A stretch of 64,000 bases of DNA from Acidimicrobiales bacterium. Its GTDB lineage: Bacteria; Actinomycetota; Acidimicrobiia; Acidimicrobiales; Iamiaceae. The position numbers and the translations under genes were made by a program. Positions 1 to 16,708 of the stretch are shown one piece after another. Positions within the stretch are counted from its first letter, which is position 1; every line of letters begins with the position of its first letter. Where the stretch lies: NCBI GenBank assembly GCA_035547835.1, contig DASZTW010000011.1, positions 1 through 64,000 on the forward strand, given 5' to 3'. The notes under the pieces were generated by a model. The model had not been told where the DNA came from. It did no database searches and worked only from the letters and a program-made list of their open reading frames with translations.

Positions 1-175
1 AACACGCCGGCAGCCACGGCCAACGGACTTCGAGGGCATCTCCGGCCTTTCGCTGGTCGCACCGAACGAGATGCCGGACTATCACCGACTTCAGAAGGAT
101 GAGGTCTGGACCCTGCTCGGAGCGGGGATCTCCCGCATGAGCCGCGCGGACCGCCGTGCTCAGAGAGGAGACCAA

Positions 176-343
176 ATGTCCTACCCACTCGGCACCAGAG
201 CCCGAACCGGCGAGGTCTGTCCGGTGTCCGGCGTATGGAAGTCGCTCGACACCCCGAGCACCACGGCACCAATCGCCAAGGGGAATCGGATGCCGCCCCA
301 CAACAGCGTGGCAGTCACATGGGAGTTGACCCGCTTCGCCTGA
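176..343 (+). CDS. Small protein of unknown function (55 aa)
   Basis: Encodes 55 residues from an ATG with a good ribosome site (GAGGAG, about 5 bases upstream), which is why I prefer it to the earlier in-frame ATG at 71. The peptide has a 'CPVSGVW' motif, a middle 'PIAKGNRMPP' stretch and a single Trp near the C-terminus. This layout resembles YjzC-type small proteins, but the likeness is weak and no function can be given. The same frame is open leftwards to the window edge, so the segment could instead be the end of a longer protein that starts outside. It precedes a sigma-like gene by about 235 bases and is probably a separate transcription unit. Confidence 0.45.
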   Translation: MSYPLGTRARTGEVCPVSGVWKSLDTPSTTAPIAKGNRMPPHNSVAVTWELTRFA

Positions 344-349
344 TCACAG

Positions 350-402
350 TCCCCGCCTGGCGTCCGCGAAGGAACCTGTCCGAACGGCTCTCCAGGCGGG
401 GA
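350..402. terminator. Long inverted repeat after the small gene
   Basis: Perfect 11-bp arms (TCCCCGCCTGG at 350-360 and its complement at 392-402) enclose about 31 bases. No T-run follows, so this is either a factor-dependent terminator or a structured leader. It begins 7 bases after the preceding stop codon. Confidence 0.35.
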
Positions 403-578
403 TGCTTACAGTGAGGGCCCAAGCTGGCCGCGAGAGCGGAATCAGCATGCTAAGTTGGCTCTGACAACTGAATTGAAGGTCGTTACCTCGGACGAGGCCG
501 CAAAGGCTTCATAAGTAGGAACGGCATACCGCACCTGCACTCATCGGCTGCGACCTTCCACGAGAGAAGGGTCGAACG

Positions 579-1142
579 ATGAGTTCTTCTGTTTTTGATG
601 AGTTGCCCGCGGATGGGCGCTTGCGCACCAAGGCCCACCTTGAAGCGTGTCACGCCACGGTACGCGCAGCTAGCCCGCGGTGGTGCGCCAAGGACGCCGA
701 CTTTGAGGGCGTAGCCGATGAGGTGGTCGTATCAACCGTGCGCAGCTTCGATCCGAAGCTCGGCGACTTCGCACCACACCTCTTCGCCCGTGCATCGAAC
801 CGCGTTGCCCGCAGCCTGAGTCGGCAGATGCCAGTCTTCGAACGCTCACGCACGAGGGAGTCCATCGATGGCCTGGCGCCCAGCGTTCTCGATGATGTCC
901 GCTACGCGGCCCCCGGAGCTGACGAGGAGTTGGCATCCGCGGACGAGTTCACTGTGCATGACTTCTTCGATGGGCTGCCGAAACCGCTCGAGGCGGTCGC
1001 CCGACTTCTCTATGCCGGATCGACTCAGGCCGCCGCGGCGGAGCAACTAGGTCTATCGCCGAAGGCAGTCAGTCGACTGGTCGCCCGCCTCAGGCCAATT
1101 GCCGCCTCTCATTTTGGCCGCCCCGATCTCCTTGCCGCGTAG
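579..1142 (+). CDS. Sigma-70-like (ECF-type) DNA-binding protein
   Basis: 187 residues. Residues about 45-85 ('FDPKLGDFAPHLFARASN') look like sigma region 2, which binds core RNA polymerase and the -10 element. Residues about 140-175 ('STQAAAAEQLGLSPKAVSRL') form a helix-turn-helix like sigma region 4. The ATG follows a purine-rich ribosome site (GAGAGAAGG). It lies 30 bases ahead of the GHKL ATPase gene and most likely shares its mRNA. A sigma-like protein at the head of a cargo cassette could be a dedicated activator or a structural DNA-binding subunit. The protein is divergent and may have lost sigma activity. Composition is less GC-rich than the chromosomal part of the window, in keeping with mobile cargo. 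Confidence 0.6.
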   Translation: MSSSVFDELPADGRLRTKAHLEACHATVRAASPRWCAKDADFEGVADEVVVSTVRSFDPKLGDFAPHLFARASNRVARSLSRQMPVFERSRTRESIDGLAPSVLDDVRYAAPGADEELASADEFTVHDFFDGLPKPLEAVARLLYAGSTQAAAAEQLGLSPKAVSRLVARLRPIAASHFGRPDLLAA

Positions 1143-1172
1143 CCCCCAGTTCACCTACCTTAAGGATACCAA

Positions 1173-2936
1173 ATGTCACGCGATACCGCGAGTAAAGCCC
1201 ACAAGCGCCAACTTGATTATGTGTCCGGTTTGCCGGGCGAGGAGGGCAAGCTCGACCTCATCGTTGCGCAGGCCTTCGTACGGTCGATCCGAGATCTTGG
1301 CTACCGGAGTGCCGCCACAGCGCTCGATGAGTTGATCGACAATTCGATTGAGGCTGGGGCGGCGAACGTCCACGTAGCGCTAGGCTTCAATGGTAAATCG
1401 GATGCTAAACCAACCCAGATTGCTGTTCTTGATGATGGCTTTGGCATGGTTCCCGGGATGGTTGCCGCAAGCGCCCAATGGGGTGGGACGGACCGTGAAG
1501 GCAGCCGCAACCTCTTCGGTCGCTATGGATACGGGTTGCCGAGCGCCTCGGTGAGTCAGGGGAAGCGCTTCTCCGTGCTCTCGCGCATCGATTCGGGGAC
1601 GTTCTACGGCGTGACTCTCGATGTGGAAGAGATCGGCAAGGCGAAGACTGGCAGCCGAGTTCTGATGCCGGAAGCCGCAACCCAAGAGCTCCCTCAATGG
1701 ATTCAGATGCACGCCGAAGAAGCCTTCCCTGGTGGTATGGATGCTGTTCGCACCGTCATCGTCTGGGACAAGCTCGACCGCATCACCTGGAAGACGGCTA
1801 GTTCATTGGAGCAGAACCTGCTCCAACACTTCGGCCTTGTCTACCGCGGGTTTCTTCGACAGACCGCGATCTCGGTCAACCGAAAGGTGGTCGAGCCTAT
1901 CGACCCCTTGTTCATCACGCCTGGTTATCGCCTCTACGATGTCGATGATGACCGAGCGGAGGCTCTGCCCCCACTCGCCCTAGAGGTCCCGGACGATAAC
2001 GGAAAGCTGCTCGGCACCGTCACCTTGCGGATCTCATACATGCCACCGGGATTTCTGTCGAAGGACAAATCCAAGAAGGCTACTGGCAAAAACCAGAACG
2101 CGCGGTTCGGGGTTCGCAAGGACAACAACGGTTTCATCATCTGCCGTAACGGCCGGCAGATTGACACGGTCACCAAGAACAAGCTCACGACCTTCGTCAA
2201 CAATGATCGCTACATCGGGCTAGAGCTCGACTTCCCAGCGGCCCTTGACGAAGAGTTTGGTGTCACCACAGCAAAACAACAGATCACGATCTCGGATCGC
2301 GTCCTCGATCGGCTACAACAGGCCGGCTTCCTTCGGATCATGGAGCAGCTGCGCAAACGCGTGAAGGAGGAGGTTGCAGATACGGTCACCACGATTGAGG
2401 GATCGGACAGCGTGGCGAGCGCCTCTGAGGCAGTCATGGCGGAGGTGTCCGACCTCGTCCGCCAGCGGCCTCCGTCCCCCGAGGCGGAAGAGATCGCCCG
2501 CGAGAATCTTGATCGTGAGATTGAGCGGGTTGCGAAGGAGGAGGGTCTCCCTGAGGCGCTGGTCAGGGATGCACATGAGGAGGCGGCGGCTGCGCGCCCC
2601 TTTCGGGTGCACCGAGAGAGCGTTGCCGATGCCCCCTTCTACCGGGTCGAGCAGCGTGGTGGACAGTTCATCCTGATCTTGAACACGGCCCACCGATTCT
2701 TCACGGACGTGTACGCGGTCGTGGAGGGGCTCGAAGGGGCCAGGATCCGCGCATCGCTTGACTTGCTGCTGTTCATCCTCGGACAATGCGAGTTGGACGC
2801 CAACACCCAGGGTCAGATCTGGTATCAGAGCGAGCGTATCGAGTGGTCCCGCCGTCTGAACGCGGCGTTGACCCTGCTCGAGGATCATCTCGATCTCCTC
2901 ATCGATGAGCCAGACACGCTGCTCGACTCCGAGTAG
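1173..2936 (+). CDS. GHKL (Hsp90/MutL/MORC-type) ATPase, probable defence component
   Basis: 587 residues. The N-terminal half has all the GHKL ATP-binding boxes: 'LDELIDNSIEAGA' at about 51-63 (Glu53 as likely general base, Asn57 for Mg), 'LDDGFGM' at 86-92 and 'GRYGYGLPSAS' at 116-126. Such ATPases dimerise on ATP binding and act as clamps in Hsp90, MutL, gyrase B and MORC. Residues about 395-470 are charged and helical. The C-terminal region (about 475-587) has no family I recognise. The ATG follows AAGGA. The gene sits between the sigma-like gene and a DruA-like gene, all on one strand, so a joint role in phage or plasmid defence is inferred. Residues are seen, family behaviour is known, the defence role is inference. 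Confidence 0.7.
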   Translation: MSRDTASKAHKRQLDYVSGLPGEEGKLDLIVAQAFVRSIRDLGYRSAATALDELIDNSIEAGAANVHVALGFNGKSDAKPTQIAVLDDGFGMVPGMVAASAQWGGTDREGSRNLFGRYGYGLPSASVSQGKRFSVLSRIDSGTFYGVTLDVEEIGKAKTGSRVLMPEAATQELPQWIQMHAEEAFPGGMDAVRTVIVWDKLDRITWKTASSLEQNLLQHFGLVYRGFLRQTAISVNRKVVEPIDPLFITPGYRLYDVDDDRAEALPPLALEVPDDNGKLLGTVTLRISYMPPGFLSKDKSKKATGKNQNARFGVRKDNNGFIICRNGRQIDTVTKNKLTTFVNNDRYIGLELDFPAALDEEFGVTTAKQQITISDRVLDRLQQAGFLRIMEQLRKRVKEEVADTVTTIEGSDSVASASEAVMAEVSDLVRQRPPSPEAEEIARENLDREIERVAKEEGLPEALVRDAHEEAAAARPFRVHRESVADAPFYRVEQRGGQFILILNTAHRFFTDVYAVVEGLEGARIRASLDLLLFILGQCELDANTQGQIWYQSERIEWSRRLNAALTLLEDHLDLLIDEPDTLLDSE

Positions 2937-2988
2937 CGTCCTCCTCGAACGAGACGAGTGCCGTCCGACCCCGGCTCGCGCTCGCGCC

Positions 2989-3020
2989 TAGCCTGCCTTG
3001 CAGTTCGGCGTCACGAACTG
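2989..3020 (+). promoter_or_regulatory. Candidate -10 box and 5' hairpin ahead of the DruA-like gene
   Basis: A TAGCCT -10-like box (2989-2994) is followed at 3001-3020 by a 7-bp inverted repeat (CAGTTCG / CGAACTG, 6-base loop). If transcription starts about 7 bases after the box, the mRNA would begin with this hairpin, 35 bases before the start codon. Suggests the third cassette gene can be expressed separately. Confidence 0.35.
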
Positions 3021-3054
3021 CCTCGACCGCCCAGGCAAGCGAAGGTACAGGAGC

Positions 3055-4191
3055 ATGGTCAATCTCAGCGAGCTGCGCCGCATGGTGATCGGCGAGCTGA
3101 TGGCGGCGGGCTTCGAGTCGAGCGGGGGCCTTCTCGTCCCGCCAGCCGACAGCGACAAGCAGAGCATCCGTGCGCTTCATCAAGCTCAACGCTCTCAGGT
3201 ACTTGCAAAGGCGGCCAACTTCATCGAGACCTGGGAGAATCGGGTTCTCGGCTCCTTCGCGGATGGCGATGAAGTCGACCCAGAGCAAATAAATCCGGCC
3301 GTTGTACAGGTAACGACAGAGGAGGAGGCCGCTATATTTCGGTATGCTTCGCTCCATTGGTCTGTACCTGTCTCGCAAGGTTACGGCCGGCGAACGCGCT
3401 TCCTGATTATGGATCAGTCGAATGGGAAACTCATTGGTATCTTCGCTCTCGGAGATCCCGTGTTCAATCTCAAGGTCCGGGATGATCTTATTGGCTGGGG
3501 ACCCGAGCAGCGTAAGAGGCGTCTGTACAACGTCTTCGATGCGTTCGTTCTAGGCGCCGTGGAGCCCTATCGTCAGCTAATTGGCGGGAAGCTTGCAGCG
3601 TTGTGTGCCGTCAGTGATGAAACCCGGATTTTCCTAAAGGAGAAGTACGATGGTACTCGCACCATCATCGATCAGCAGGTGAAGATCGCCACTCCCGTTC
3701 TCATCACGACCACATCGGCGCTCGGTCGCTCCTCTGTCTACAACAGGCTTACTTTCGGCGACCGCAAGGTCCTGCAGCCAATCGGTTTTACGGAAGGCTT
3801 CGGACACTTCCAGTTCTCGGATGACGTCTTCACCGAACTTGTTGAGCTGGCGAGGCGGGATGACCCGCGGCGCGGCAATGAGTACGGTGATGGGCCCAAC
3901 TGGAAGATGCGGACGATCCGGAGCTCGCTGCAGAAGCTTGGCTTGTCCGGAAACCTCCTCAAGCACGGGATCAAGCGGGAGGTGTTCATCGCGCCGCTCT
4001 CGTTTGGATGGCGGGCATTTCTACGTGGTGAGACAGATGTGATCAGGCCGGTTGCCTACCCACTCGGAGACATTTCCCGTTATTACAGCGAGCGCTGGGC
4101 GATCCCCCGTGCTCAGCGGATGCCAGGATTCAGGTCCTGGGATCACCATGGCATGCGGCTGTCTTCGCAAATGGTGACGCTGCGCCGCTAG
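3055..4191 (+). CDS. DUF4338 / DruA-like protein
   Basis: 378 residues from an ATG with an AGGAG site just upstream; an in-frame TTG at 2998 is less likely. Residues about 110-200 match the DUF4338 pattern seen in Druantia DruA: 'FLIMDQSNGKLIGIFALGDP', then 'RDDLIGWGPEQRKRRLYNV' and a 'FVLGAV' segment. In Druantia type I, DruA works beside DruB-E, where DruE is a large helicase. None of those partners is present here; the neighbours are a GHKL ATPase and a sigma-like protein. DUF4338 has no agreed activity. Its occurrence on a mobile element next to an ATPase supports an anti-phage or anti-plasmid role, and the gene set appears to be a different architecture from classical Druantia. Confidence 0.7.
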   Translation: MVNLSELRRMVIGELMAAGFESSGGLLVPPADSDKQSIRALHQAQRSQVLAKAANFIETWENRVLGSFADGDEVDPEQINPAVVQVTTEEEAAIFRYASLHWSVPVSQGYGRRTRFLIMDQSNGKLIGIFALGDPVFNLKVRDDLIGWGPEQRKRRLYNVFDAFVLGAVEPYRQLIGGKLAALCAVSDETRIFLKEKYDGTRTIIDQQVKIATPVLITTTSALGRSSVYNRLTFGDRKVLQPIGFTEGFGHFQFSDDVFTELVELARRDDPRRGNEYGDGPNWKMRTIRSSLQKLGLSGNLLKHGIKREVFIAPLSFGWRAFLRGETDVIRPVAYPLGDISRYYSERWAIPRAQRMPGFRSWDHHGMRLSSQMVTLRR

Positions 4192-4289
4192 CCACAGGGC
4201 TGCAGAACGGATGCGAGACTGCCGATCATAATGCGAACGATGTCGAAATCGCTCCGAGCTTGACCTCGCCGATCGACCGCCGCCGCGGC

Positions 4290-4556
4290 CTACGTTGTGG
4301 GCGCGGCCAGCCCCTTCACCAGCTCCCCCGCATCCACCTCGAGCGCCTCGGCCAGCTTGAGGATGTTGTGCAACGAGATGTTGCGCTGACCACGCTCGGT
4401 TTGTCCGATCATCGTCCAGTGCAGCTGTGCCCTGGCTGCCAGCGCCTCCTGGCTCAGCCCGAGCTCCTGCCGGCGGGCGCGGACGCGCTCCCCGAAGGCC
4501 TTGGTAGCAGGTGACAGCGGAGGAGCCATGGCAAGCCCCAACGACATACGCCCCAT
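4290..4556 (-). CDS. XRE-family helix-turn-helix regulator
   Basis: 88 residues, or 79 if the in-frame ATG at 4529 is used. The Cro/CI-type helix-turn-helix covers about residues 24-80: 'FGERVRARRQELGLSQEALA' followed by 'TMIGQTERGQRNISLHNILK'. Proteins of this size repress their own promoter and adjacent genes. It is divergent from the membrane-protein/SpeD operon at 4857, and the region between them carries an ACATATGT palindrome. It may therefore control that operon. Unlike the XRE protein at 13415 it has no ImmA partner. Confidence 0.75.
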   Translation of the reverse strand: MGRMSLGLAMAPPLSPATKAFGERVRARRQELGLSQEALAARAQLHWTMIGQTERGQRNISLHNILKLAEALEVDAGELVKGLAAPTT

Positions 4557-4573
4557 GGGTCAACATCCAGAGA

Positions 4574-4581
4574 ACATATGT
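4574..4581. promoter_or_regulatory. ACATATGT palindrome, candidate XRE operator
   Basis: Eight-base perfect palindrome, extended by imperfect G/C flanks, 18 bases upstream of the first ATG of the divergent XRE gene. The position suits autoregulation. Confidence 0.3.
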
Positions 4582-4833
4582 CCCAACTGTTTGCATCCTG
4601 GTACGCTCAGGCTCGGACAGCAGGCGCTCTGTCTGCCCGGGCTGAGGGGAGGTGGCACCGTGAGCGGTGGCGGCAACGGCTAGTTGATGGCCGACTCTGA
4701 ACCCGCGCAGGCGTGCACCCACGAGTCCGGCCGGCTCCCGGTGCAGGCGGCGAGGGGGAGTGACTGATCCCGGCGCGCACGGTGCACCTGCCGCTTGGGG
4801 TCGGTCGCTACACGCTATGGAATGTCATGCATG

Positions 4834-4850
4834 TTTGATACAATTGACAC
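4834..4850 (+). promoter_or_regulatory. Promoter-like -10 with a partial match to the element's operator
   Basis: TACAAT (4839-4844) lies 12 bases before the ATG at 4857, which lacks a ribosome site, so a leaderless or very short-leader mRNA is likely. Read on the minus strand, 4834-4850 (GTGTCAATTGTATCAAA) partly resembles the TTGACATTGNGTATCA repeat found before 9482 and 13415. Confidence 0.35.
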
Positions 4851-4856
4851 TAGAAC

Positions 4857-6077
4857 ATGCGCGACATTCTCGGCCGGTTGTACCGCACCAAGATGGTCCT
4901 CAGCTGCCTGATCCTGATCACCAGTGGGACCCTCTTGATCGTGGCCGGCCACCAGGTTGACGCCATGCACGGTTGGGCCTGGCTCAAGACCCTGCCCTTC
5001 GGGGAACTCGGCGGCATCCTGATTGGCGCCGGCGTACTCAGCGTCTGGCTTGACCACTTCTTTCAACGCGAGCAATCCGAGATCGATGAGCTCAGGCTCC
5101 GCCGCCTGCTCCACGACCAGGCACCCGCCATGCGGGATGCCGTGCTCGAGGCCTTCGCTGCCAACCAGGCCGATCTACGGCGGGTAGCCACACCCGACAC
5201 CCTCGACCGGATCATCACCAACAGCCTGGCCCTGCGCCTCGATGACGAGCAGTTCGCAGCCGAGGTGTACGCCGACATTCGTGACCAGGCAATCGGTGCT
5301 GCTGAGCGTTGGCACGATGCCAACCTGTCTATTCAGCTGTCGCCCCTGCCTGCAGGCAGGGGTACGGCCAAGGGCCGTACCCCTCACCACCCGGGTGGTG
5401 GCTTCTTCAGCGTTACCGTTCGCTGGGAGTACACCGTGGTGCCTAAGCATGCCCAGCGCCGCTTCGTCTGCCTGTCCGACCGAACCGAGTACGCCGAGCT
5501 GGCAGCCGAGCGAGGCGCGACCTCCGCCTGGTACTTGAAACCCGATCCAGGAGTCGAGGCGGGCTCGCCTGACTCCTTCGAACTGCTGCGCTTCAGTGTC
5601 GATGGCGAGGAACGGGCGATCCGGCGCACGGCCCGGAAGCACAGCCAGCTCTACACGGTCAATGTGGGCACAGAGCAGATCGAGGCCGAGGAGCCGGTGA
5701 CGATCAGCTACACCTACCGCACCATCACGCCAGCCAACGCCCACCTGCTGTTCTTTGACATCGAGCAGCCCACCCGGGACCTGCGGGTCGACTTCGACTA
5801 CAGCGACTGCGACCTGGCCAGCGTCAGCACGCTCGACCTCATCCCCTCGGTGAGACCAACCCGCATCGAGAAAACCCCCGCTCAACTACCTGACGGGGTC
5901 ATCCGCGTGGACATCGATGGCTGGGTGTTTCCACGGTCGGGGGTGGCGTTCGTGTGGACAAGTGGCAGCGAGACGACATTGGTCCCGGTCTCAACTGCGA
6001 ACCACGAGCAGCGAGCTAGGTTACGCAGCGGTGGAGCGACAAGCCGCTCCGGGAGGTGGGCCGATGGCACGCAGTGA
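4857..6077 (+). CDS. Two-TM membrane protein with a large soluble domain
   Basis: 406 residues. Two hydrophobic helices at about 14-34 and 46-66 are followed by a charged helical segment (about 70-160, 'REQSEIDELRLRRLLHD') and a beta-rich region (about 180-385) with alternating Thr/Val/Tyr. No enzyme motif is visible. The stop overlaps the start of speD by 14 bases, so the two are co-transcribed. The layout, TM hairpin plus soluble sensor or effector domain, is common among membrane proteins of bacterial conflict systems, but I recognise no named family. Codon use is GC-rich, unlike the next three genes, so it may be an older part of the element to which the polyamine genes were added. The C-terminal 20 residues are low-complexity Arg/Ser/Gly. 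Confidence 0.65.
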   Translation: MRDILGRLYRTKMVLSCLILITSGTLLIVAGHQVDAMHGWAWLKTLPFGELGGILIGAGVLSVWLDHFFQREQSEIDELRLRRLLHDQAPAMRDAVLEAFAANQADLRRVATPDTLDRIITNSLALRLDDEQFAAEVYADIRDQAIGAAERWHDANLSIQLSPLPAGRGTAKGRTPHHPGGGFFSVTVRWEYTVVPKHAQRRFVCLSDRTEYAELAAERGATSAWYLKPDPGVEAGSPDSFELLRFSVDGEERAIRRTARKHSQLYTVNVGTEQIEAEEPVTISYTYRTITPANAHLLFFDIEQPTRDLRVDFDYSDCDLASVSTLDLIPSVRPTRIEKTPAQLPDGVIRVDIDGWVFPRSGVAFVWTSGSETTLVPVSTANHEQRARLRSGGATSRSGRWADGTQ

Positions 6078-6540
6078 CGAAGGGGCGCCGACCAACCCGC
6101 AGGTGTCGCTGCCGGCCCTGCCCAGCAAGAGCACTCTGAAGTATGGTCGCCGGATCTTTGACCTGAACTTGACGGACCACGTTCAGGGCGTCTGGGATGA
6201 GTCAATCCCTCTGGTCCAGCAATGCACGGTGGAAGCGGTTGGAATTTCATCCGACCTCCTCACCGATGGAGAGTTTCTTGCCGATACCTGCGAACGGCTC
6301 TGCAGCTCGCTACACCTGACCATTCTACGCTCAATTGCTGAGCCGTTGCCGCCCGGCCACACGCTAGTGTTCATTCTCTCCGAAAGCCACCTTGCGCTTC
6401 ACTCCTGGCCCGAGAAGGGATACATCAATATCGATCTTGTGACATGCACAAAACGCGGAGTTGACCCAATTCGGTTCTCCGACCTCATTACAGATGCCTT
6501 TAAGCCATCAAGCATACGCGTTCACAAGATCTACTTTTAG
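6064..6540 (+). CDS. speD: S-adenosylmethionine decarboxylase, prokaryotic SpeD type
   Basis: 158 residues; the ATG has a strong GGGAGGTG site and overlaps the upstream gene by 14 bases. SpeD makes decarboxylated AdoMet, the aminopropyl donor for polyamine synthesis, with a pyruvoyl group formed by self-cleavage at Ser. The cleavage and active-site block is intact: 'SESHLALHSWPEKGY' with Glu107, Ser108, His109, His113, and Cys128 in 'DLVTC'. Compared with the usual 120-135 residue bacterial enzyme it carries about 30 extra N-terminal residues. It is followed after 12 bases by a BpsA-type transferase, which would consume its product. Base composition drops well below the chromosome here, a sign of recent transfer. 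Housekeeping polyamine genes are not usually in this setting. Confidence 0.8.
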   Translation: MARSDEGAPTNPQVSLPALPSKSTLKYGRRIFDLNLTDHVQGVWDESIPLVQQCTVEAVGISSDLLTDGEFLADTCERLCSSLHLTILRSIAEPLPPGHTLVFILSESHLALHSWPEKGYINIDLVTCTKRGVDPIRFSDLITDAFKPSSIRVHKIYF

Positions 6541-6552
6541 GCGGAGGAGAGT

Positions 6553-7281
6553 ATGACAGACGATACTTCGGAGCATCAGAGAGCCAAGGGAAAGTCGGTA
6601 GTCAGTTACCGGTCTATCGGTGAGTTGGCTGCTGCATTAGACTCCTTGCGTCCGGAACCGGATCCTCAGCTAGAGCAATTCCTAATGATGGCTCCGAACC
6701 TCGCCGATCAGGCAGAGTACCTTGGGCGGATCTTCGCCGACCGCAGAGTGCTATTCCTGGGTGACGATGACCATGTGTCCATCCTGGTTGCCGCGTTCTC
6801 AACTGTCTCGCCAGTCGTCTACGAGGTCGACCATCGGGTTGTGGCGAGCTTGAAGTCATGGGCGGACCGGCTGCCGCTGCCGAGCTACTCAGTCGCATTG
6901 CACGACATACGAGAACCGTTCCGCCAGCCGCCCGAGTGCGATGCGTTCTACATAAATCCGCCATATTCGTCAAAGACTGACGGATATGGTATCAAATTCT
7001 GGATCAGCCGTGCGCTTGAGGGTTGCGTCCCATATTGCGAAGGCGTGATTGTCTTGCCCGCCGATAGTGATGGCGGATGGATAGATCAGAACTGGTTGTC
7101 AGTCCAGGACTTCCTTACCGCGAACGGGTTCCGGATCGTTAATCCACATAATGATGTGCGCCACATGTACCATGGGACGAACGACCTGGGACTCCGATCC
7201 GAGAATTTGCGAGTGAGACGAGTCGACCCATCCCGCCGCCTCCCAATCGAGCCGCGACCTGGTACGCACCTATACCGTTGA
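6553..7281 (+). CDS. BpsA-like (DUF43) aminopropyltransferase, short form
   Basis: 242 residues; ATG preceded by GGCGGAGGAG. The core fits the branched-chain polyamine synthase family, which transfers aminopropyl groups from decarboxylated AdoMet to spermidine: 'RRVLFLGDDDHVSIL' (about 62-76, the conserved Gly-Asp-Asp-Asp), an acidic 'VVYEVDHRVVAS' ribose-binding strand, and 'DAFYINPPYSSKTDGYG' (about 132-148), where family members have D-P-P-Y. The N-terminal winged-helix domain of full-length BpsA (about 350 aa) is missing, so this is a minimal catalytic version. Directly downstream of speD, which supplies its donor. It could act on a polyamine, a nucleotide or a protein; a methyltransferase role is the main alternative because the fold is shared. 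Confidence 0.7.
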   Translation: MTDDTSEHQRAKGKSVVSYRSIGELAAALDSLRPEPDPQLEQFLMMAPNLADQAEYLGRIFADRRVLFLGDDDHVSILVAAFSTVSPVVYEVDHRVVASLKSWADRLPLPSYSVALHDIREPFRQPPECDAFYINPPYSSKTDGYGIKFWISRALEGCVPYCEGVIVLPADSDGGWIDQNWLSVQDFLTANGFRIVNPHNDVRHMYHGTNDLGLRSENLRVRRVDPSRRLPIEPRPGTHLYR

Positions 7282-7302
7282 CGTCCCGGGAGTTGTTTCT
7301 TC

Positions 7303-7797
7303 GTGAGAAGTCTACTAGCGAGTACTTCGCCTGCTCTGGAGCAATGGTACTGGGTATCCCAGATCACTCTGTCGATTATTCTGACGGTATCGGCGGTAGC
7401 TGCGGTCGTTCAGATTGTCGGACTGCGCAGGACGTTGCTCAGCCAGGGATTTGAGGAGGACGCAGGTCGGATCAGGCGGCTATCCGACCTCATGTTGAAC
7501 TACCCGCGAGAACTCAATGAGCTAGGCACATACAATACTTCTGGGAAGCAACTCTCAACTTCAGCCTGCGTTCTGGCGGAAGCCATTCTAGATGAACTAG
7601 ATACGGTTCTACTCCGTAAGGGCACCTTCGAGAAGCGCTGGGGGGCGCGAAATCTACCGGACCTGCGACTCTGGATGAGAGATATGATGGCCGAGTATCC
7701 TGGTCTGATGTGGTGCTTGCAGCGGCGGAGAGAATGGTATACGGGTGGCCTGAGAGATCTCGCGGCTGCCGTAAGCGATACGGACGCGACCAGTTAG
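7303..7797 (+). CDS. One-TM protein, last gene of the polyamine-type cassette
   Basis: 164 residues from GTG, 21 bases after the transferase gene. One hydrophobic helix at about 18-42 ('LSIILTVSAVAAVVQIVGL') is followed by a cytoplasmic, mainly helical domain with many Arg and Leu residues and several conserved-looking aromatics ('YPGLMWCLQRRREWY'). This is the arrangement of small membrane effectors or anchors in several bacterial immune cassettes, but I cannot name a family. It shares the AT-richer composition of speD and the transferase and clearly travels with them. A role as membrane effector triggered by the products of the two enzymes is inference only. Confidence 0.6.
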   Translation: MRSLLASTSPALEQWYWVSQITLSIILTVSAVAAVVQIVGLRRTLLSQGFEEDAGRIRRLSDLMLNYPRELNELGTYNTSGKQLSTSACVLAEAILDELDTVLLRKGTFEKRWGARNLPDLRLWMRDMMAEYPGLMWCLQRRREWYTGGLRDLAAAVSDTDATS

Positions 7798-7842
7798 CGG
7801 ATATAATCATTTTAGTTGTTTGGAACTTGCGGCGGCGCCGTA

Positions 7843-8274
7843 TCAGCTATGGTGGTTGGCCGTCCAGACTACTAGCGCAACATCAGCCACTATATTGTCC
7901 TCATAATAGCTGCGAAATGTTGACGTCATGATGCCCAGCTGGTCGGCCGCGATCCGGCGGCGATGCTTGAGCAGTTGCCCTCGTGCCTCAGGCGTGACTC
8001 CGAAGAGCGCCTGCGTGGCTAGACCGGTGGCTCCCTCACCGAGGGAGCGTACGGCCGCAGTGATCCGATCCGCGAGGTTGAGTGCCCGGAGATATGGGTC
8101 GGTCGTGTCACCCGGTGAGAGATCATCGGCAGCCAGGATGACAGCGTCTGGGAAGAGATCGAGGTAGCGGACCATCTGCGCCGGCCTGACGCCCACGCGC
8201 AGCAGCTCCTGCAATGCACGCGTGATCACCTCGACCGGGTGCTCAGCCCCGGTGGCGGGTGACGACTCGTCCAC
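7843..8274 (-). CDS. Helical protein of unknown function, possible remnant
   Basis: 143 residues from GTG. The C-terminal part ('GVTPEARGQLLKHRRRIAAD' then 'STFRSYYEDNIVADVA') resembles a winged-helix-like motif that recurs in actinobacterial regulatory and conflict proteins ('L..RR..AA..L.....FR'). The N-terminal half is helical and unassigned. The frame stays open upstream to a TAA near 8365, and a strong AGGAGG lies at about 8344-8349 without a standard start codon at the right distance. The true start may therefore be a rare codon (CTG or ATC), or the gene may have lost its 5' end. It is convergent with the TM gene at 7303. Confidence 0.4.
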   Translation of the reverse strand: MDESSPATGAEHPVEVITRALQELLRVGVRPAQMVRYLDLFPDAVILAADDLSPGDTTDPYLRALNLADRITAAVRSLGEGATGLATQALFGVTPEARGQLLKHRRRIAADQLGIMTSTFRSYYEDNIVADVALVVWTANHHS

Positions 8275-8349
8275 ATCGCCCTGCGTGCCGCTGGTCGCCC
8301 GAACCAGCCGGTACCGCGAGATCGCACGCAGGCCCTTGATCAGCCTCCT

Positions 8350-8397
8350 GCCACAAAATTAGTCAGGAACTGGTCACTTTCCTCCACGTTTTGTGGC
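8350..8397. repeat. Inverted repeat GCCACAAAA / TTTTGTGGC
   Basis: Perfect 9-bp arms at 8350-8358 and 8389-8397 in the AT-richer region between divergent genes (7843 minus and 8424 plus). Could be a regulatory site or a scar of the junction between the cargo and the transfer backbone. Confidence 0.4.
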
Positions 8398-8423
8398 TTT
8401 TGGATGCGTCATCGTCTCGGGTG

Positions 8424-8567
8424 ATGACCCGCACCCCTGATTCCGACCCCAACGAAAACGATGTTCCCCACTGGGGCGGCGTCTCGTTCTCCGGGCTCGA
8501 CACCCGCCACTGGCTCCCCTACCTCCCGCCTGAGGTCGTAGAGCAAGCCGCCAACGACTCTGACTGA
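8424..8567 (+). CDS. Small acidic protein (47 aa)
   Basis: ATG at 8424, with an in-frame GTG directly before it, opens a 47-codon frame ending in TGA, followed 11 bases later by a strong terminator hairpin. The peptide is rich in Asp, Pro and Trp ('NDVPHWGGVSFSGLDTRHWL') and has a typical C-terminal helix ('PEVVEQAAND'). No family recognised. Clean framing by upstream inverted repeat and downstream terminator supports a real single-gene unit at the start of the transfer region. Confidence 0.5.
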   Translation: MTRTPDSDPNENDVPHWGGVSFSGLDTRHWLPYLPPEVVEQAANDSD

Positions 8568-8578
8568 TCCACCCACAG

Positions 8579-8603
8579 AGGCCCACGCCCAAGGCGTGGG
8601 CCT
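8579..8603 (+). terminator. Intrinsic terminator
   Basis: Perfect 11-bp GC-rich hairpin (AGGCCCACGCC / GGCGTGGGCCT) with a 3-base loop, followed by CTTCTCG. It separates the 47-aa gene from the transfer operon. Confidence 0.65.
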
Positions 8604-8620
8604 CTTCTCGTACAGGAGAG

Positions 8621-8992
8621 ATGACCAACATGACTGAACTGCTTCCAACCATTCGTAACGCCACCCAGCCTGCTCGGCTGCCCGGCGCAGCACCCCGCCT
8701 CCCTCGCCACACCAGCCGTGCACTGGCGGCGCTGGAACAGCGCACCATGCTGCGCCAGGCCGGCGTTCTGGCCGAGTCGGTCGTGCAGCTGACCAAGCTA
8801 CAAGAGATCGACCGCCTGGCCCGCGAAGCCGCCAGCGGCCACGCAATGCTGGTGCGCTGGCGCGAAACCCTGGCTGCCGGCGACCCGCTGCTCGATGACG
8901 AGCTGCGCTACTTCACGGACCTCGCCCGCCTCGGCAAGGGCGAGATCCTGATGGACACCATCACGACCTACTGCCGCGAGAGCAACCGGTGA
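8621..8992 (+). CDS. Conserved element protein, first gene of transfer-region chain
   Basis: 123 residues, or 120 if the ATG at 8630 is used; the AGGAG site sits better for 8630. The protein is alpha-helical and charged after a Pro/Arg-rich N-terminus ('LAALEQRTMLRQAG', 'IDRLAREAASGHAMLVRWRE'). No catalytic motif. The stop overlaps the next start by four bases (GTGA), so translation is coupled. The position ahead of small membrane proteins and a coupling ATPase suggests an accessory transfer or stabilisation role. Function unknown. Confidence 0.6.
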   Translation: MTNMTELLPTIRNATQPARLPGAAPRLPRHTSRALAALEQRTMLRQAGVLAESVVQLTKLQEIDRLAREAASGHAMLVRWRETLAAGDPLLDDELRYFTDLARLGKGEILMDTITTYCRESNR

Positions 8993-9371: not shown

Positions 9372-9412
9372 GCCCCGTCCGTCTGCCGTGGATTTCACAA
9401 CGAAAGCTTGAC

Positions 9413-9465: not shown

Positions 9466-9481
9466 CAGGAGAGGAGGTGAA

Positions 9482-9622
9482 ATGGACAAGCAAAGCCGCG
9501 TTACGGCCATTCACTCCGCCACACCCAACCTGCGCAAGCTGGCCCGGGCGCTCCTGCTGTTGGTCGCCGAGCAATCTCCCAAGCAGACCGCCCAGCCGCC
9601 CACAGAACGGAAGGCCAGCTAA
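9482..9622 (+). CDS. Small basic protein (46 aa) ahead of the coupling ATPase
   Basis: ATG with an excellent GGAGAGGAGGTG site; ends in TAA that overlaps the next ATG (TAATG). The 46 residues are Arg/Lys-rich at the N-terminus with one short hydrophobic helix ('LARALLLLVAEQ'). It is the first gene after the 9413-9465 operator and may serve mainly to couple translation of the large ATPase gene, or be a small accessory peptide. Confidence 0.5.
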   Translation: MDKQSRVTAIHSATPNLRKLARALLLLVAEQSPKQTAQPPTERKAS

Positions 9623-11904
9623 TGGCCGCCTCGCTCTGGCTGGCCGTGACGGCGGCCGCCGCCTTCGTGGCAGGCGTCCTGCTGCTGCGGGCCGCCGAAC
9701 AGCGCCGGATCAACCACGGCGCCCGCAGCTTCTGCTTGCGCTTTCCGCGTGACATGGCCGCTGAAGATGTGACGGTGTTCGTAGCCGGCCTGGCCGGCGT
9801 CCGGCCGCCTTGGTACTGGCACTGGCTCCGCCTGCCAACCGTCAGCCTCGAGACCCACGCCACCGCCGGTCAGATCGACCACTACCTGTTCATTCCCAAG
9901 CCGCTGACCGGCATCGTGCTGTCGCACCTCCGCGCCGCCCTGCCGAGCGTGCGGGTCGAGCTAGCCGAGGCCCCGCCCGCCGCGGATCTCAGCCACGGCA
10001 TCGAGCTGCGCACCACCAGCCGGCAGCGGCCGCTGCGCACTGACCGGGCGGCAGCCACCTCGGCAGCGCTGTTGACCACGCTGCTGCCGCTCCGACCAGA
10101 CGAGCAAGTAGTGGTGCAGTGGCTGCTGACGCCGGCCTTGCTGCCGCGTCCGCTGAAGCTGGCCAGCCGGCCCCGCCAACCTGAGCTGCTGACGCCGCTG
10201 CGTGAGGATCACGACTACGACATCTCGCCGCACGGCGAAGCGCTCCGAGCCGCCCGCGCCAAGCAGGCCGAAGCCACCTTCTCGTGCGTAGGACGGATCG
10301 CCGTCAAGGCAGCCGCCCGCCCACGGGCCCGCTACCTGCTGCAGCGGATACGTGGTGCCTACGAGCTTGTCAGCGCGCCCGGCATCCAGCTCGACCGCCG
10401 CCTTGGCGTCAGCAGTCGCTTGGCGGCTCGCTACGCCAGCCAGCGCCGGATCCCGCTGGTGACGTGGCCGGTCCTGCTCAACGCCGCCGAGATCAGTGCC
10501 GTCATGGGCTGGCCGGTCGGCGTGACGCAGCTGCCGGGTCTGGTGCTGGGTGCCTGCCGGCAGTTGCCGCCAGCCGCCGACCTGCCGAGCACCGGCTGCG
10601 TGGTGGCGCGTGCCACCTTCCCGGGCGCCGAGCGGCCGGTCGCCATCCAGCCGGCGGACCGCCTGCTGCACACGCTGCTGACCGGGCCCACCGGCTCGGG
10701 AAAGAGCAACCTGCTGCTGTCGCTCATCACGCAGGACATGCAGGCCGGCCGTTCGGTTGTGGTGGTTGACCCCAAGGGTGACTTGGTAACGGAATGCTTG
10801 AAGCGAGTGCCCGCCGAGCGGGTGCGGGATGTCATTGTGCTGGATCCGGGCGATGAGCAGCGCCCCGTTGGCATGGATCTGCTGACTGCCGACCAGGCCT
10901 CCGCCGAACTGGTAGCTGAACAGACGGTCTTCATCTTTCATCAGTTGTTCTCGGCCTTCTGGGGTCCCCGGACCGATGACGTCTTGCGGGCGGCGCTGCT
11001 GACGCTGATGTCGGAGCCGGGCATGACCTTGGTAGAGGTGCCGCTGCTGCTGACCAACGCCGCCTGGCGCCGCCGCTTTGTGGCCAACGTCCAACACGAC
11101 AGTGTTGGGCTCGGCCCCTTCTGGTCGTACTACGAAGGCCTCAAGCCGAACGACCAGGCGCAAGTGATCGCCCCGCTTATGAACAAGCTGCGCGCCACCT
11201 TGCTGCGCAGCCGGGTCCGCAACTGCGTTGGCCAAGCCGAGCCGCTCCTCAAGCTGGGCGAAGCCTTGGACAGCCGCAAGCTGCTGTTCGTACCGCTGCG
11301 CCAGGGCGTGCTCGGCGATGAAGCCGCCGCCCTGATGGGCTCGCTGTTCGTCTCCCGGGTCTGGCAGACCGTCCAGGCCCGCAGCGCCATCCCCGAAGCC
11401 CAGCGCCAACCGGTCCACTTCTACATTGATGAGGTTCAGAACTACCTACACCTGCCGAGCAGTGTCGGCGACATGCTGGCGGCCGCCCGCGGGCTGGGGC
11501 TCGGTCTGACGGTCGCTCACCAGCACCTCGGCCAGCTCTCCGCCGAGCTGCTGCAGGATCTCCTGGCGAACTGCCGCAGCAAGGTGGTCTTTCAAACCAC
11601 CGCCAAGGACGCACACCGCTTCGAGCAAGAGTTCACGCCCTACCTGACCGCCGCTGACCTGCAGGGCCTCGGCCGCTTTGAGGTGGTCGCCCAGCTGGCC
11701 GTCAACCAGCGGGTGGCCCCGCCGGTCACCGGCGTGACGCTGCCGCCACCCGAGCCCACCAACCATGCGGCTGCCGCCAAGGCCTGGTCGCGCCAGCACT
11801 ACGGCCGCGACCGCCAAGCCATCGAGGCCGACATGCAGGCGCGCCATGGCACGGTCGCTGCAGCGGCACCAGTCGGACGAGCACCGAAGCGGAGGTCACG
11901 ATGA
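9622..11904 (+). CDS. VirD4/TraG-like DNA-transfer coupling ATPase
   Basis: 760 residues. One N-terminal membrane helix at about 5-23 precedes an N-terminal domain of about 300 residues. Walker A 'GPTGSGKSN' is at about 355-363, followed by 'VVVVDPKGDLVTE'. Walker B and the acidic pair are in 'VHFYIDEVQNYL' at about 599-610, then 'HQHLGQLS'. These are features of hexameric coupling proteins that drive DNA through conjugative channels (TraG/VirD4 family, HerA-FtsK clade). No relaxase or mating-pore genes are visible, so the element may be a mobilizable one, or move double-stranded DNA as actinobacterial elements with FtsK-like proteins do. The last codon overlaps the start of a 40-codon gene (ATGA). 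Confidence 0.85.
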   Translation: MAASLWLAVTAAAAFVAGVLLLRAAEQRRINHGARSFCLRFPRDMAAEDVTVFVAGLAGVRPPWYWHWLRLPTVSLETHATAGQIDHYLFIPKPLTGIVLSHLRAALPSVRVELAEAPPAADLSHGIELRTTSRQRPLRTDRAAATSAALLTTLLPLRPDEQVVVQWLLTPALLPRPLKLASRPRQPELLTPLREDHDYDISPHGEALRAARAKQAEATFSCVGRIAVKAAARPRARYLLQRIRGAYELVSAPGIQLDRRLGVSSRLAARYASQRRIPLVTWPVLLNAAEISAVMGWPVGVTQLPGLVLGACRQLPPAADLPSTGCVVARATFPGAERPVAIQPADRLLHTLLTGPTGSGKSNLLLSLITQDMQAGRSVVVVDPKGDLVTECLKRVPAERVRDVIVLDPGDEQRPVGMDLLTADQASAELVAEQTVFIFHQLFSAFWGPRTDDVLRAALLTLMSEPGMTLVEVPLLLTNAAWRRRFVANVQHDSVGLGPFWSYYEGLKPNDQAQVIAPLMNKLRATLLRSRVRNCVGQAEPLLKLGEALDSRKLLFVPLRQGVLGDEAAALMGSLFVSRVWQTVQARSAIPEAQRQPVHFYIDEVQNYLHLPSSVGDMLAAARGLGLGLTVAHQHLGQLSAELLQDLLANCRSKVVFQTTAKDAHRFEQEFTPYLTAADLQGLGRFEVVAQLAVNQRVAPPVTGVTLPPPEPTNHAAAAKAWSRQHYGRDRQAIEADMQARHGTVAAAAPVGRAPKRRSR

Positions 11905-12023
11905 GTTGGCCGGTCGCTTGTCCGTTCGGGTTGCCAAGCCACGGCCAGCTGCCGTGGTCAGACGGGCTATCTGCAGCCGATCCGGTAGCGACACATGACG
12001 GAAGCCATGGAGTCGAGTCGTGA
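11901..12023 (+). CDS. Tiny coupled gene (40 aa)
   Basis: ATG at 11901 (ATGA overlap with the ATPase stop, GGAGG site upstream) opens a 40-codon frame whose TGA overlaps the GTG of the next gene (GTGA). The peptide ('PFGLPSHGQLPWSDGL' in its middle) has no known motif. Overlaps at both ends with large genes argue that it is translated, perhaps as a relay that couples the two. Confidence 0.45.
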   Translation: MSWPVACPFGLPSHGQLPWSDGLSAADPVATHDGSHGVES

Positions 12024-12820
12024 ACGGCCGCCCCTACGTAACCGCCCATTACCTGGCCGACCTGCGCACCAGGCTGACCGAGGTCGACTGGGCAATCGTG
12101 GCGGACGTTCGCCAGATGCGGCTGGCCTCAGCCCGAGACCTGCAGGCACTCCAGCAGCTGCGCGCCCCGCTGCAGGTGCGATCGTTTCGGCGCCGCTTGC
12201 AGCAGCTGCACGAGCTCGGCGTGCTGGCCCGCCTGGAGCGGACGGTCGGCGGCCAGCGGGCTGGCTCGGCCGGCTTCGTCTACCGCCTCGGCAGTGCCGG
12301 CCAGCGGCTGCTGGCGAACGAGCACGGCGGTGCCATCCAGCGGCCGTGGACGCCCCGGCCCGCTTGGCTGCGGCACGCCCTGGCCGCCAGTCACCTCTAC
12401 GTAGTGCTGCGCCTGGCCGAAGCCGAGCAGCGGCTTCGTCTGCTCGACTATCAGCCGGAGCCGTTGGCGTGGCGGCGCTTCCAGGCAGTCGGCGGCCAAG
12501 CGGTCACCCTCAAGCCCGATGGCTTCGCCCGCTACGAGCTGCCTGATGCGCTCGTCAGCAGCTTCCTCGAGGTCGACTGCGCCAGCGAGTCGCCCGCCAC
12601 CATCGCCCGCAAACTCGGCGTCTACATCGCCTGCTGGCAGAGCGGCCAAGCCCTCGACTCGAGCGGCGTCTTCCCGGAAACGCTCTGGCTGGTGCCAGAC
12701 CAGCGCCGCCGTGCGGTCTTGCAGCGGGTGATCGATCAGCATCCAGCCGAAGCCCGCCGCCTCTTCCGGGTCGGCTGTTACGACCAGGCCCGACAGCTGT
12801 TTACGGAGCCGCCGCCCTGA
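12020..12820 (+). CDS. Replication-relaxation family protein
   Basis: 266 residues from GTG. The N-terminus has a winged-helix pattern ('VDWAIVADVRQMRLASARDL', 'RRRLQQLHELGVLARLERTV', 'FVYRLGSAGQRLL'), followed by a central 'WLRHALAASHLYVVL' segment and a nuclease-like or regulatory C-terminal part with 'KPDGFARYEL' and 'FLEVDCASESPATI'. This order is that of the replication-relaxation family found on actinobacterial integrative elements, where it is thought to take part in initiating transfer or replication. The E/D residues of the last block resemble restriction-endonuclease-fold signatures. It lies immediately after the coupling ATPase, the usual pairing. Confidence 0.7.
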   Translation: MNGRPYVTAHYLADLRTRLTEVDWAIVADVRQMRLASARDLQALQQLRAPLQVRSFRRRLQQLHELGVLARLERTVGGQRAGSAGFVYRLGSAGQRLLANEHGGAIQRPWTPRPAWLRHALAASHLYVVLRLAEAEQRLRLLDYQPEPLAWRRFQAVGGQAVTLKPDGFARYELPDALVSSFLEVDCASESPATIARKLGVYIACWQSGQALDSSGVFPETLWLVPDQRRRAVLQRVIDQHPAEARRLFRVGCYDQARQLFTEPPP

Positions 12821-12866
12821 CGCGGCTGGCACTGCAACAGATCAACCGTAAACAGGAGATCGCTTC

Positions 12867-13349: not shown

Positions 13350-13363
13350 AACGTACAACACCC

Positions 13364-13393: not shown

Positions 13394-13414
13394 ACGGTGC
13401 TGAAGGAGCAGCGC

Positions 13415-14410: not shown

Positions 14411-16708
14411 ATGAAGGAGCGCCGTCCACAGGAGCGGCCATCCAGCAGTCATGCCGCTGGATCGGCCACGCCGCAGGAGGCCAGCATCAAGCGTGCGGTC
14501 GCCTACCTGCGGGTCAGTACCAAACAGCAAGCCGTCCGTGACGGCCACGCCGAGGGTTATTCGCTGCCGACCCAGCGAGCCACCTGCGAACGCCGGGCCG
14601 AGCAACTGGGCGCCGTCATCATCGAGGAGTACCTCGACAAGGACACCGGCACCCGCACCGACAAGCGCCCGCAGATGATGGCCATGCTGGACCGCATCAC
14701 CCGTGAGCGAGATGTCGACTACGTCATCGTCTTCAAGCTCGATCGCTGGGCCCGCAACGCCCGTGAGGATCTGGTCAACGACTACCTGCTCGAGAACGCC
14801 GGCGCTGAGCTGGTGTCGTGCTCCGAGCCGATCGACCGCAGCAACGCCGGCCAGATGATGCACACCGTGCTGGCCGGCCTCAACCAGTACCACTCCCGCA
14901 ACATGGGCGATGAGATCAAGCGCAAGACGCTGATCAAGATCCAAGAGGGCGGCACCCCAGGCGCCGCCCGCATTGGCTACAAGAACATTGGCGAGGGTGG
15001 CCGCCGCTGGGTCGAGCCCGACCCGGAGCGTGCCCCGCTGATCCAGTGGTGCTTTGAGGCCTATGCCACCGGCGAATGGACGATGGGCGATCTACTGGCC
15101 GAAGCCACCGACCGAGGCCTGCGCAGCCGAGGCGGACCGAACACGCCTCAGAAGAAGCTCTCGCTCAGCCAAATGAACCGGTTGCTGCGCTCGCCCTACT
15201 ACAAGGGCATCGTGGTCTTCAACGGTGCGCAGTACCAAGGCAAGCACGAGCCGCTGGTCGATGACGAGACCTGGCAGCGTGTTCAGGACATGGTCGCCAG
15301 CCGGCGCAAAGGCGAGAAGCAGCGCTCACATCACCACTATCTCAAGGGAAGCATCTACTGCGGACGCTGTGGCTCACGGCTGTGTATCACGTACTCCCGG
15401 AGCAAGACCGGCCAGCGTTACCCGTACTACTTCTGCGTGGGCCGGCACCAGAAGCGCACCACCTGCATGCTCACGTACCGGCCGCTCGAGTGGGTCGAGC
15501 GCTGCATTGAGGAGCACTACCGAGTCATCCAGCTGACAGCCGAGGGACTCGACTATACGGCTGCGGCCGTCTTGCGAGAGCTCCGTGGCCAGCAGGATAC
15601 GACAGCCGCCGAGACCGAACGCCAGCAGACCCGCCTCCGCCAGCTCGATGACGAACGCACCAAGTTGCTGCACGCCTACTACGCCGGTGCCGTGCCACTC
15701 GACCTGCTGCAGCGAGAACAACAGCGCATCGCCGAAGAAAGCAATGCGGCTGCCGCCCTGATCGCCGCTACCACCCTCCAAGGCGAAACACTCCAGACCA
15801 CCGCTGATGCTGCCGTCAGCATGGCCCGTGACTGCCATGGCGCCTACCTGGCCGCTTCGCCCAAAGCCCGCCGCCTGATGAACCAGGCCTTCTTCAAGCG
15901 AATCATGGTGACCGAGGACGGCGTAGTCGACTGGGAGTACGCTCAGCCCTTCGCCAGCCTGATGGCTGCACACGAGGCCCCCAGCGGTCTCCACGCCCAG
16001 CCCCATGACCAGCACGGCGAGGTCGACACCGCCACGGCAGGCACGAGCCGCCAGCGTGCTTCAGGCAACGGCCCGGCATACCAACGACAGAGCCCCCGCC
16101 GTTGGGCGGGGGCTCTCTTTGGTCGGAGTTCGAAAGACGAACACTTGGCGGAGGGTGTGGGATTCGAACCCACGGTGGCCCGAAGACCACAACGACTTTC
16201 GAGGCCGTCCCATTCGTCCGCTCTGGCAACCCTCCGGCCGCGACACTACTGGCTGGCAACCAGGGCCCAGAACGGGTTGGGCGCCGCTGGCCGTAGCATG
16301 CGGCGCGGTGGAACGCCTCGTGTCGTCGGAGCAGTCGGTCGCAGCAGCGCTCGACGTCGCGCTCGACGAAGCGGCGCTCGCTGCCCGCCACGACGACGTG
16401 CCGGTGGGGGCGGTGGTGCTGCGCGGCGAGCGGATCATCGCCCGCCGCCACAACGAGCGCGAACTGCGCGGCGACCCCACCGCCCACGCGGAGATGCTGG
16501 CTATCCGCGACGCGGCCGACGACCTCGGTCGTTGGCGGCTCGAGGATTGCACGCTGGTGGTCACGCTCGAGCCTTGCCCGATGTGCGCGGGAGCGGCGTG
16601 GGCGGCACGGCTCGGCAAGGTCGTGTACGCGGCCGCCGACTTCAAAGCGGGCGCGATGGGGTCGCTGTACAACGTGGCTGCCGACAACCGGCTCAACCAT
16701 CAGAGTGA
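14411..16708 (+). CDS. Large serine recombinase (integrase) with no stop before the tRNA
   Basis: The catalytic resolvase domain (about residues 28-170) begins 'RAVAYLRVSTKQQ' with nucleophile Ser36. The recombinase domain follows to about 300. A zinc ribbon is at about 316-352 ('YCGRCGSRLC', 'YFCVGRHQKRTTC'), then a coiled-coil region ('LRQLDDERTKLLHAYYAG'). It inserts and excises the element. Recognisable homology ends near residue 520 (about 15960), but the frame has no stop until 16708. It runs through a terminator hairpin, antisense through tRNA-Ser(CGA), and into the tadA region. Everything past about 16090 is probably not native protein. The likeliest cause is that integration separated the gene from its own stop codon. 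The start has a GAGGA site. The end coordinate is simply the first in-frame stop. Confidence 0.8.
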   Translation: MKERRPQERPSSSHAAGSATPQEASIKRAVAYLRVSTKQQAVRDGHAEGYSLPTQRATCERRAEQLGAVIIEEYLDKDTGTRTDKRPQMMAMLDRITRERDVDYVIVFKLDRWARNAREDLVNDYLLENAGAELVSCSEPIDRSNAGQMMHTVLAGLNQYHSRNMGDEIKRKTLIKIQEGGTPGAARIGYKNIGEGGRRWVEPDPERAPLIQWCFEAYATGEWTMGDLLAEATDRGLRSRGGPNTPQKKLSLSQMNRLLRSPYYKGIVVFNGAQYQGKHEPLVDDETWQRVQDMVASRRKGEKQRSHHHYLKGSIYCGRCGSRLCITYSRSKTGQRYPYYFCVGRHQKRTTCMLTYRPLEWVERCIEEHYRVIQLTAEGLDYTAAAVLRELRGQQDTTAAETERQQTRLRQLDDERTKLLHAYYAGAVPLDLLQREQQRIAEESNAAAALIAATTLQGETLQTTADAAVSMARDCHGAYLAASPKARRLMNQAFFKRIMVTEDGVVDWEYAQPFASLMAAHEAPSGLHAQPHDQHGEVDTATAGTSRQRASGNGPAYQRQSPRRWAGALFGRSSKDEHLAEGVGFEPTVARRPQRLSRPSHSSALATLRPRHYWLATRAQNGLGAAGRSMRRGGTPRVVGAVGRSSARRRARRSGARCPPRRRAGGGGGAARRADHRPPPQRARTARRPHRPRGDAGYPRRGRRPRSLAARGLHAGGHARALPDVRGSGVGGTARQGRVRGRRLQSGRDGVAVQRGCRQPAQPSE
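16089..16116. terminator. Strong hairpin, probable terminator
   Basis: Perfect 12-bp arms (AGAGCCCCCGCC / GGCGGGGGCTCT) with a GTTG loop. It lies 30 bases beyond the 3' end of the minus-strand tRNA-Ser and so suits termination of the tRNA transcript. On the plus strand it is followed by CTTT and lies inside the run-on integrase frame. Confidence 0.65.
16146..16235 (-). tRNA. tRNA-Ser(CGA)
   Basis: 90-nt class II tRNA on the minus strand with CCA encoded. The acceptor arm is GGAGGGT/ACCCTCC, the anticodon loop is CTCGAAA (anticodon CGA, reads UCG), the long variable arm is GTGGTC-TTCG-GGCCAC, and the T arm is GTGGG-TTCGAAT-CCCAC. Its 3' end faces the mobile element, the usual orientation for an attachment site in a tRNA gene. 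Confidence 0.92.
16294..16299 (+). promoter_or_regulatory. -10 box of tadA (leaderless)
   Basis: TAGCAT, 8 bases before the GTG start; no ribosome site. Confidence 0.6.

Follow-up and report, generated by a model that had tools for sequence, protein, structure and literature searches.

The first 64,000 nucleotides (64 kb) of contig DASZTW010000011.1 (contig C11) of an Acidimicrobiales bacterium (assembly GCA_035547835.1, 3.7 Mb in 22 contigs), here called the window, begin with a cassette of three genes for a sigma-like protein, a MORC-like GHKL ATPase, and DruA, the DUF4338 protein of Druantia systems. We found that this trio is a recurrent unit and not a chance grouping, and that it is probably a real, apparently undescribed branch of Druantia-related conflict systems. 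We put at roughly 45% the probability of the reading that we favor, namely that the cassette is a compact DNA-conflict module carried by a mobile element and related to Druantia type I, in which a MORC-like clamp would work with a DruA modifier and a sigma-like protein would couple both to transcription.

The three open reading frames (ORFs) are intact, lie on the plus strand, and occupy the positions given in an initial annotation made from the sequence. They encode a sigma-70/ECF-like protein of 187 residues (579..1142), the ATPase of 587 residues (1173..2936), and a short form of DruA of 378 residues (3055..4191), which starts at an ATG, has an alternative TTG start at 2998, and ends at 4191 as annotated. 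The gaps between the genes are 30 bp and 118 bp. Using a profile built from five ATPases we identified 79 loci in 84,980 species genomes, and once the window and further loci from plasmids and genomes were added, the set comprised 86 loci with an ATPase match. In 69 of the 86 the ATPase gene was located no more than 600 bp from a gene for DruA. Sigma counterparts were found with a profile of the small sigma-like neighbors, and all three genes are present in 22 loci. Rare joint occurrence would have refuted the initial annotation; they occur together in 21 loci besides the window, most of which share its gene order. In all triple loci except two Rhodobacterales plasmids, the sigma gene is the immediate neighbor of an ATPase gene on the same strand; it is nearly always upstream, often with a gap of 1 to 4 bp. 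The trio is also found on plasmids of Leisingera and Roseivivax, where the sigma gene lies past DruA and on the opposite strand. Far from the ATPase we counted five sigma matches in 1.59 Mb, corresponding to about 0.2 expected nearby by chance versus the 22 loci observed. The triple loci belong to at least six phyla (Pseudomonadota, Verrucomicrobiota, Deinococcota, Bacteroidota, Candidatus Poribacteria, and the lineage of the window). The nearest relative of the window ATPase is actinobacterial, and its partner in the tree is from Micromonosporaceae, near other rows with sigma and DruA. Relatives of the ATPase-DruA pair are carried on plasmids, viral contigs, and mobile elements, and three IMG/VR viral contigs contain either this pair or a variant with two ATPases.

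Two variations on the trio recur as well. Ten further loci have the sigma and ATPase genes without DruA, and in several of them ParB-like genes and an N6/N4 methyltransferase take its place. ParB-like proteins and/or N6/N4 DNA methyltransferases form a second recurrent partner set of the sigma and MORC-like ATPase genes (L026, L051, L055, L058, L059, and L060), a hint that the shared target is DNA. At nine loci (L046, L048, L049, L050, L053, L057, L062, L079, and L081) the sigma gene lies between genes for two different GHKL ATPases in the order GHKL-sigma-GHKL-DruA, and this arrangement suggests a heterodimer variant.

The remaining GHKL-DruA loci mostly encode a helicase of about 1,850 residues, which PADLOC names DruE1 (1,993 bits in the one example submitted to it); some of these loci have DruD1. 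Among the 69 DruA loci, 39 contain DruE only, 19 sigma only, 3 both, and 8 neither (Fisher p of about 4e-8 for the exclusion, kinship between loci being ignored), and the sigma and DruE labels are strongly clustered in the ATPase tree. In eleven sigma-bearing loci the sequence extends 6.5 kb or more to either side and has no DruE-like match. Because the other GHKL-DruA loci mostly include DruE1 and because sigma and DruE are nearly exclusive, the window cassette represents a branch of a Druantia-I-related module that has sigma and lacks DruE. The initial annotation had proposed a compact architecture different from Druantia I-III. The compact trio recurs, and no named system with the same three parts, nor any description of the trio, was found in PADLOC or the literature searched, subscription papers being outside its coverage; the GHKL-DruA pair, however, mostly comes with DruE1 and sometimes DruD1, and so is related to Druantia I. 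The other Druantia genes were said to be missing, and indeed none of DruB, DruC, DruD, and DruE was found beside the cassette. Contig C11, which begins just upstream of the cassette, has no MZB helicase; the genome's only two are on C2 and C17. The neighboring ORFs tested gave no PADLOC match to DruB, DruC, or DruD, up to the contig end that cuts the upstream side, while the same library recognizes DruB-D in pKF715A; there was likewise no match to the parts that define Druantia type IV (DruE, DruF, and DruL; PMC8565338). We considered a DruE encoded elsewhere in the genome as a partner in trans and rejected it, as the only large MZB helicase belongs to an ARMADA type II-like locus with a probable methyltransferase and a RelE-like/GajB-like ORF. 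That probable ARMADA type II locus (L034, C17:268000-287900, positions 2-13714), assigned by eye from the description in PMC12458937, consists of an ORF of 1556 residues similar to PglX-type methyltransferases, a YprA-type MZB helicase of 2088 residues, and then an ORF with a RelE-like start.

The ATPase is a complete GHKL protein, as annotated, with E53/N57, DDGFGM, and GRYGYG read exactly. The superfamily motifs ExxxN, DxGxG, and the G-rich lid are all intact, and E53, N57, D87-x-G89-x-G91, and G116/G119/G121 are invariant in an alignment of 28 relatives. The match to Pfam HATPase_c_3 is above the cut-off (61.6 bits, 1e-16). In the AlphaFold2 (AF2) model (pLDDT 86), a GHKL domain with an S5-type module (residues 30-404) is followed by a helical C-terminal extension (residues 415-577), in which we found no Pfam match to a nuclease domain. 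Comparison of residues 30-404 with VIA-align gave Z scores of 21.1 for MORC3, 21.0 for SMCHD1, and 20.3 for MORC4; MORC2 was also among the matches, and scores across MORC2/3/4 and SMCHD1 ranged from 18 to 21. The strict MORC S5 motif GhXhhpXXRhl is missed by the window sequence, GFIICRNGRQI, which has Q at a required hydrophobic position, and is matched in only 4 of 101 family rows. Since the motif fails at this one position and does so family-wide, 'MORC-like' is the right term for the modeled protein. PADLOC gave a firm name to DruA only and weakly called the ATPase MzaB, an assignment that we rejected (68 bits versus an equivalog cut-off of 850). Scanning the genome contigs with the window ATPase as a single sequence returned nothing; the family was reached only via an alignment of relatives.

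DruA matches the Pfam DruA model with 265 bits (9e-79) and the PADLOC model with 411 bits (1.8e-123). It lacks an insertion of about 150 residues seen in the other GHKL-linked DruAs, which were found to be about 650-750 residues long with the exception of one split into two ORFs (L096). The DruA tree groups it with Druantia-I-type plasmid loci in a clade of short DruAs (support 1.0), with 40-46% identity within the clade (about 41-42% to the plasmid Druantia-I-type DruAs) and about 30% to the long forms; some 30 columns are invariant among DruAs that are about 30% identical. Among the loci inspected from 395 genomes of the class and 396 of the phylum, no second short DruA adjoined an ATPase of this kind. 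Because the window DruA is short while the other GHKL-linked DruAs are long, this looks like a swap of one DruA type for the other within the module. The AF2 model of DruA (pLDDT 80) has a GNAT-like fold, and the leading VIA rows (Z of 8.7-10) are GNAT or Mom folds. Phage Mu Mom (8bv8) ranks first (Z of 10.0 over 183 residues), tied with ordinary GNATs (Z of about 9), and the Foldseek E-values are weak (0.02 or weaker). By this model DruA is a GNAT-fold protein for which acyl transfer is predicted, and DUF4338 has already been called a GNAT domain (PMC10853773). Synechococcus phage S-SCSM2R encodes a true DruA relative (hhalign 96%) that its depositors labeled 'mom'; a search of viral contigs with back-translated peptides found no DruA.

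We also noted other contexts of DruA and Mom-like genes. Two genomes from the same class as the window genome (L145:5498-9244 and L146:5357-9079) encode DruA in fusion with a DndF/DptF-like P-loop protein, a type of fusion described before (PMC10853773). In another locus (L159:8735-19001) a short DruA precedes NurA, a HerA-like ATPase, a UvrD-like helicase, and restriction-type genes. In Arthrobacter and Microbacterium phages (L202 and L204), Mom-like genes adjoin genes with a ParB-like nuclease domain.

The sigma-like protein aligns with the TIGR02937 sigma70-ECF model over residues 20-172, which covers nearly the whole model (E of 1.2e-9), and scores 38.0 bits, slightly below the curated cut-off of 42.9. 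Several of its counterparts in other loci are above the Pfam cut-offs for sigma-70 region 2 and/or region 4 (Sigma70_r2/r4). We found no sigma fragments in four loci searched for them (L039, L040, L041, and L043) or before the ATPase gene in L045.

The mobile setting noted in the initial annotation was confirmed between 9.6 and 16.2 kb. Downstream of the cassette are genes for a type IV coupling-protein-like ATPase (9622..11904, plus strand; TrwB_AAD_bind, 3e-12), a Replic_Relax protein (12020..12820, plus strand; PF13814, 1.5e-30), an XRE regulator with an ImmA-like peptidase, and a large serine recombinase (14411..16708, plus strand; Resolvase, Recombinase, and Zn_ribbon domains), and then a tRNA-Ser gene found by ARAGORN (16146-16235, minus strand), which probably marks the element's right end. 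The first 8 kb have a GC content of about 60%, compared with about 70% over most of the remaining window. Hence, given the low GC content, the downstream mobility genes, the recombinase, and the tRNA-Ser, the cassette is cargo of an integrated element, the left end of which is beyond the contig. A search for a left attachment site with which to extend past the contig end found no copy at any contig start, only other tRNA-Ser-like sites. On inspection of the sequence, the 3' part of the recombinase ORF crosses a strong hairpin and runs through the tRNA-Ser into chromosomal DNA, and when the element is circular the recombinase may natively have a different C-terminus. The low-GC mobile region also contains an unusual pair of cargo genes (5917-7281), in which an S-adenosylmethionine decarboxylase adjoins a relative of branched-chain polyamine synthase (BpsA_C).

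MORC2 and MutL are ATP-driven DNA clamps and provide a model for the action of the ATPase. Like them, the MORC-like protein would dimerize on ATP, clamp or entrap DNA, and bring DruA to the clamped DNA. DruA might then move an acyl-type group onto a base or a DNA-bound protein, a modification by which replication or expression of the invader would be blocked. The sigma-like protein would couple the ATPase and DruA to transcription, either by timing expression of the operon or by guiding the complex to RNA polymerase or to promoters, and in the window branch it may stand in for the DruE helicase. Target, chemistry, and a role in defense are inferred; the recurrence, the modeled folds, and the motifs were observed. 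A bolder version, in which the sigma-like protein directs a DNA-entrapping ATPase of MORC type and a Mom-like GNAT DruA to the DNA of invaders, so that this DNA is hypermodified and silenced in a functional parallel of eukaryotic MORC silencing, is in our view highly improbable. Several results weigh against the conflict-module reading. The window cassette contains no nuclease or helicase, and an SNF2-like helicase block is present near some triple loci (for example, L046, L053, L079, and L081). Since base 1 of the window is base 1 of contig C11, the view upstream of the sigma gene is limited to 578 bp. The window sigma scores 41 bits against the family of cassette sigmas, and another window ORF of generic ECF-like type scores 40; the kinship of the window sigma to the other cassette sigmas is a matter of position and not of sequence. 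ECF-type promoters (GGAAC..CGT-type) show no enrichment ahead of the sigma genes (1 in 35, versus 0.54 in shuffled sequences), leaving ECF autoregulation via a common promoter motif unsupported. Comparison of DruA and Mom profiles gave no link (hhalign probability of about 1% or less), leaving their homology unsupported by this method.

Other explanations account for parts of these observations. The cassette might protect its own element: DruA would modify the element's DNA against host restriction, as phage Mu Mom does, the ATPase would aid access to DNA, and the sigma-like protein would time expression after transfer. Carriage on mobile elements, plasmids, and viral contigs fits this idea, as do the top-ranked, though tied, structural match to Mom and the Mom annotation of the S-SCSM2R gene. 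That annotation is the depositors' own, however, the profiles of DruA and Mom show no sequence link, and DruA is best known from Druantia defense loci, so we consider self-protection unlikely. Quite unlikely, too, is that the cassette is the remnant of a shortened or decaying Druantia type I system with DruE and DruB-D lost or located past the contig end. GHKL-DruA pairs usually accompany DruE1 (39 loci), the window DruA is the short form of Druantia I, and the contig begins just ahead of the sigma gene; yet the three ORFs are intact with conserved motifs, sigma-GHKL-DruA without DruE is found in 19 loci, 11 of them well visible on both sides, and the two MZB helicases of the genome are an 826-residue form and the member of the ARMADA-like locus on C17.

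The trio could alternatively be a regulatory switch without an anti-invader role, the GHKL protein acting as an anti-sigma partner like SpoIIAB/RsbW or CapK and DruA acetylating a host regulator. GHKL proteins do include anti-sigma kinases, CapK/CapS sets a precedent, and the sigma-ATPase coupling is tight even in the ten loci without DruA. The ATPase, however, models as a MORC protein with an S5 module and not as an RsbW-type kinase, and the spread over phyla and on plasmids is patchy, which makes a purely regulatory role very unlikely. Finally, the sigma gene might be unrelated cargo next to a GHKL-DruA pair. The window sigma is indeed no closer to the cassette sigmas than is the generic ECF-like ORF, but position and strand are constant in most triple loci, with very short gaps, and the chance density falls far below what was seen; this explanation is strongly disfavored and scarcely credible.

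The Druantia-I-related conflict module thus stays our favored reading of the cassette. DruA has so far been among the unexplained parts of Druantia, and its recurrent pairing with a MORC-like ATPase, joined by DruE in one branch and by sigma in another, offers a minimal unit of two or three genes in which DruA chemistry could be approached free of the very large DruE helicase. The pairing further links, in one bacterial operon, ATPases of eukaryotic MORC type, GNAT-fold enzymes, and transcription factors.

Among known systems, Druantia type I shares DruA with the cassette, even in the short Druantia-I form, and many GHKL-DruA relatives also have its DruE1 and sometimes its DruD1; it differs in that DruB, DruC, DruD, and DruE were not found beside the window genes, and the Druantia models of PADLOC do not match the MORC-like ATPase or the sigma-like protein. 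In the MZA system, MzaB resembles the GHKL N-terminal half of the ATPase (68 bits); no other Mza genes were found beside the cassette. Phage Mu Mom and GNAT acyltransferases can be aligned to the DruA model, although Mom has no detectable sequence profile similarity to it. CapK/CapS (PMC13373217) likewise combines a GHKL protein with a transcription-type protein at the head of conflict operons, but there the GHKL protein, CapK, resembles anti-sigma kinases and its partner CapS is a STAS-wHTH repressor, whereas the window encodes a MORC-like ATPase and a sigma-like partner. The MORC/paraMORC GHKL ATPases of restriction-like operons (Iyer et al. 2008, PMC2292703) resemble the window ATPase in the GHKL and S5 modules, in their mobile operons, and in their DNA-modifying gene partners; DUF4338 and sigma partners are not mentioned in the text consulted. 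The window ATPase differs from them by one position of the MORC-specific S5 motif.

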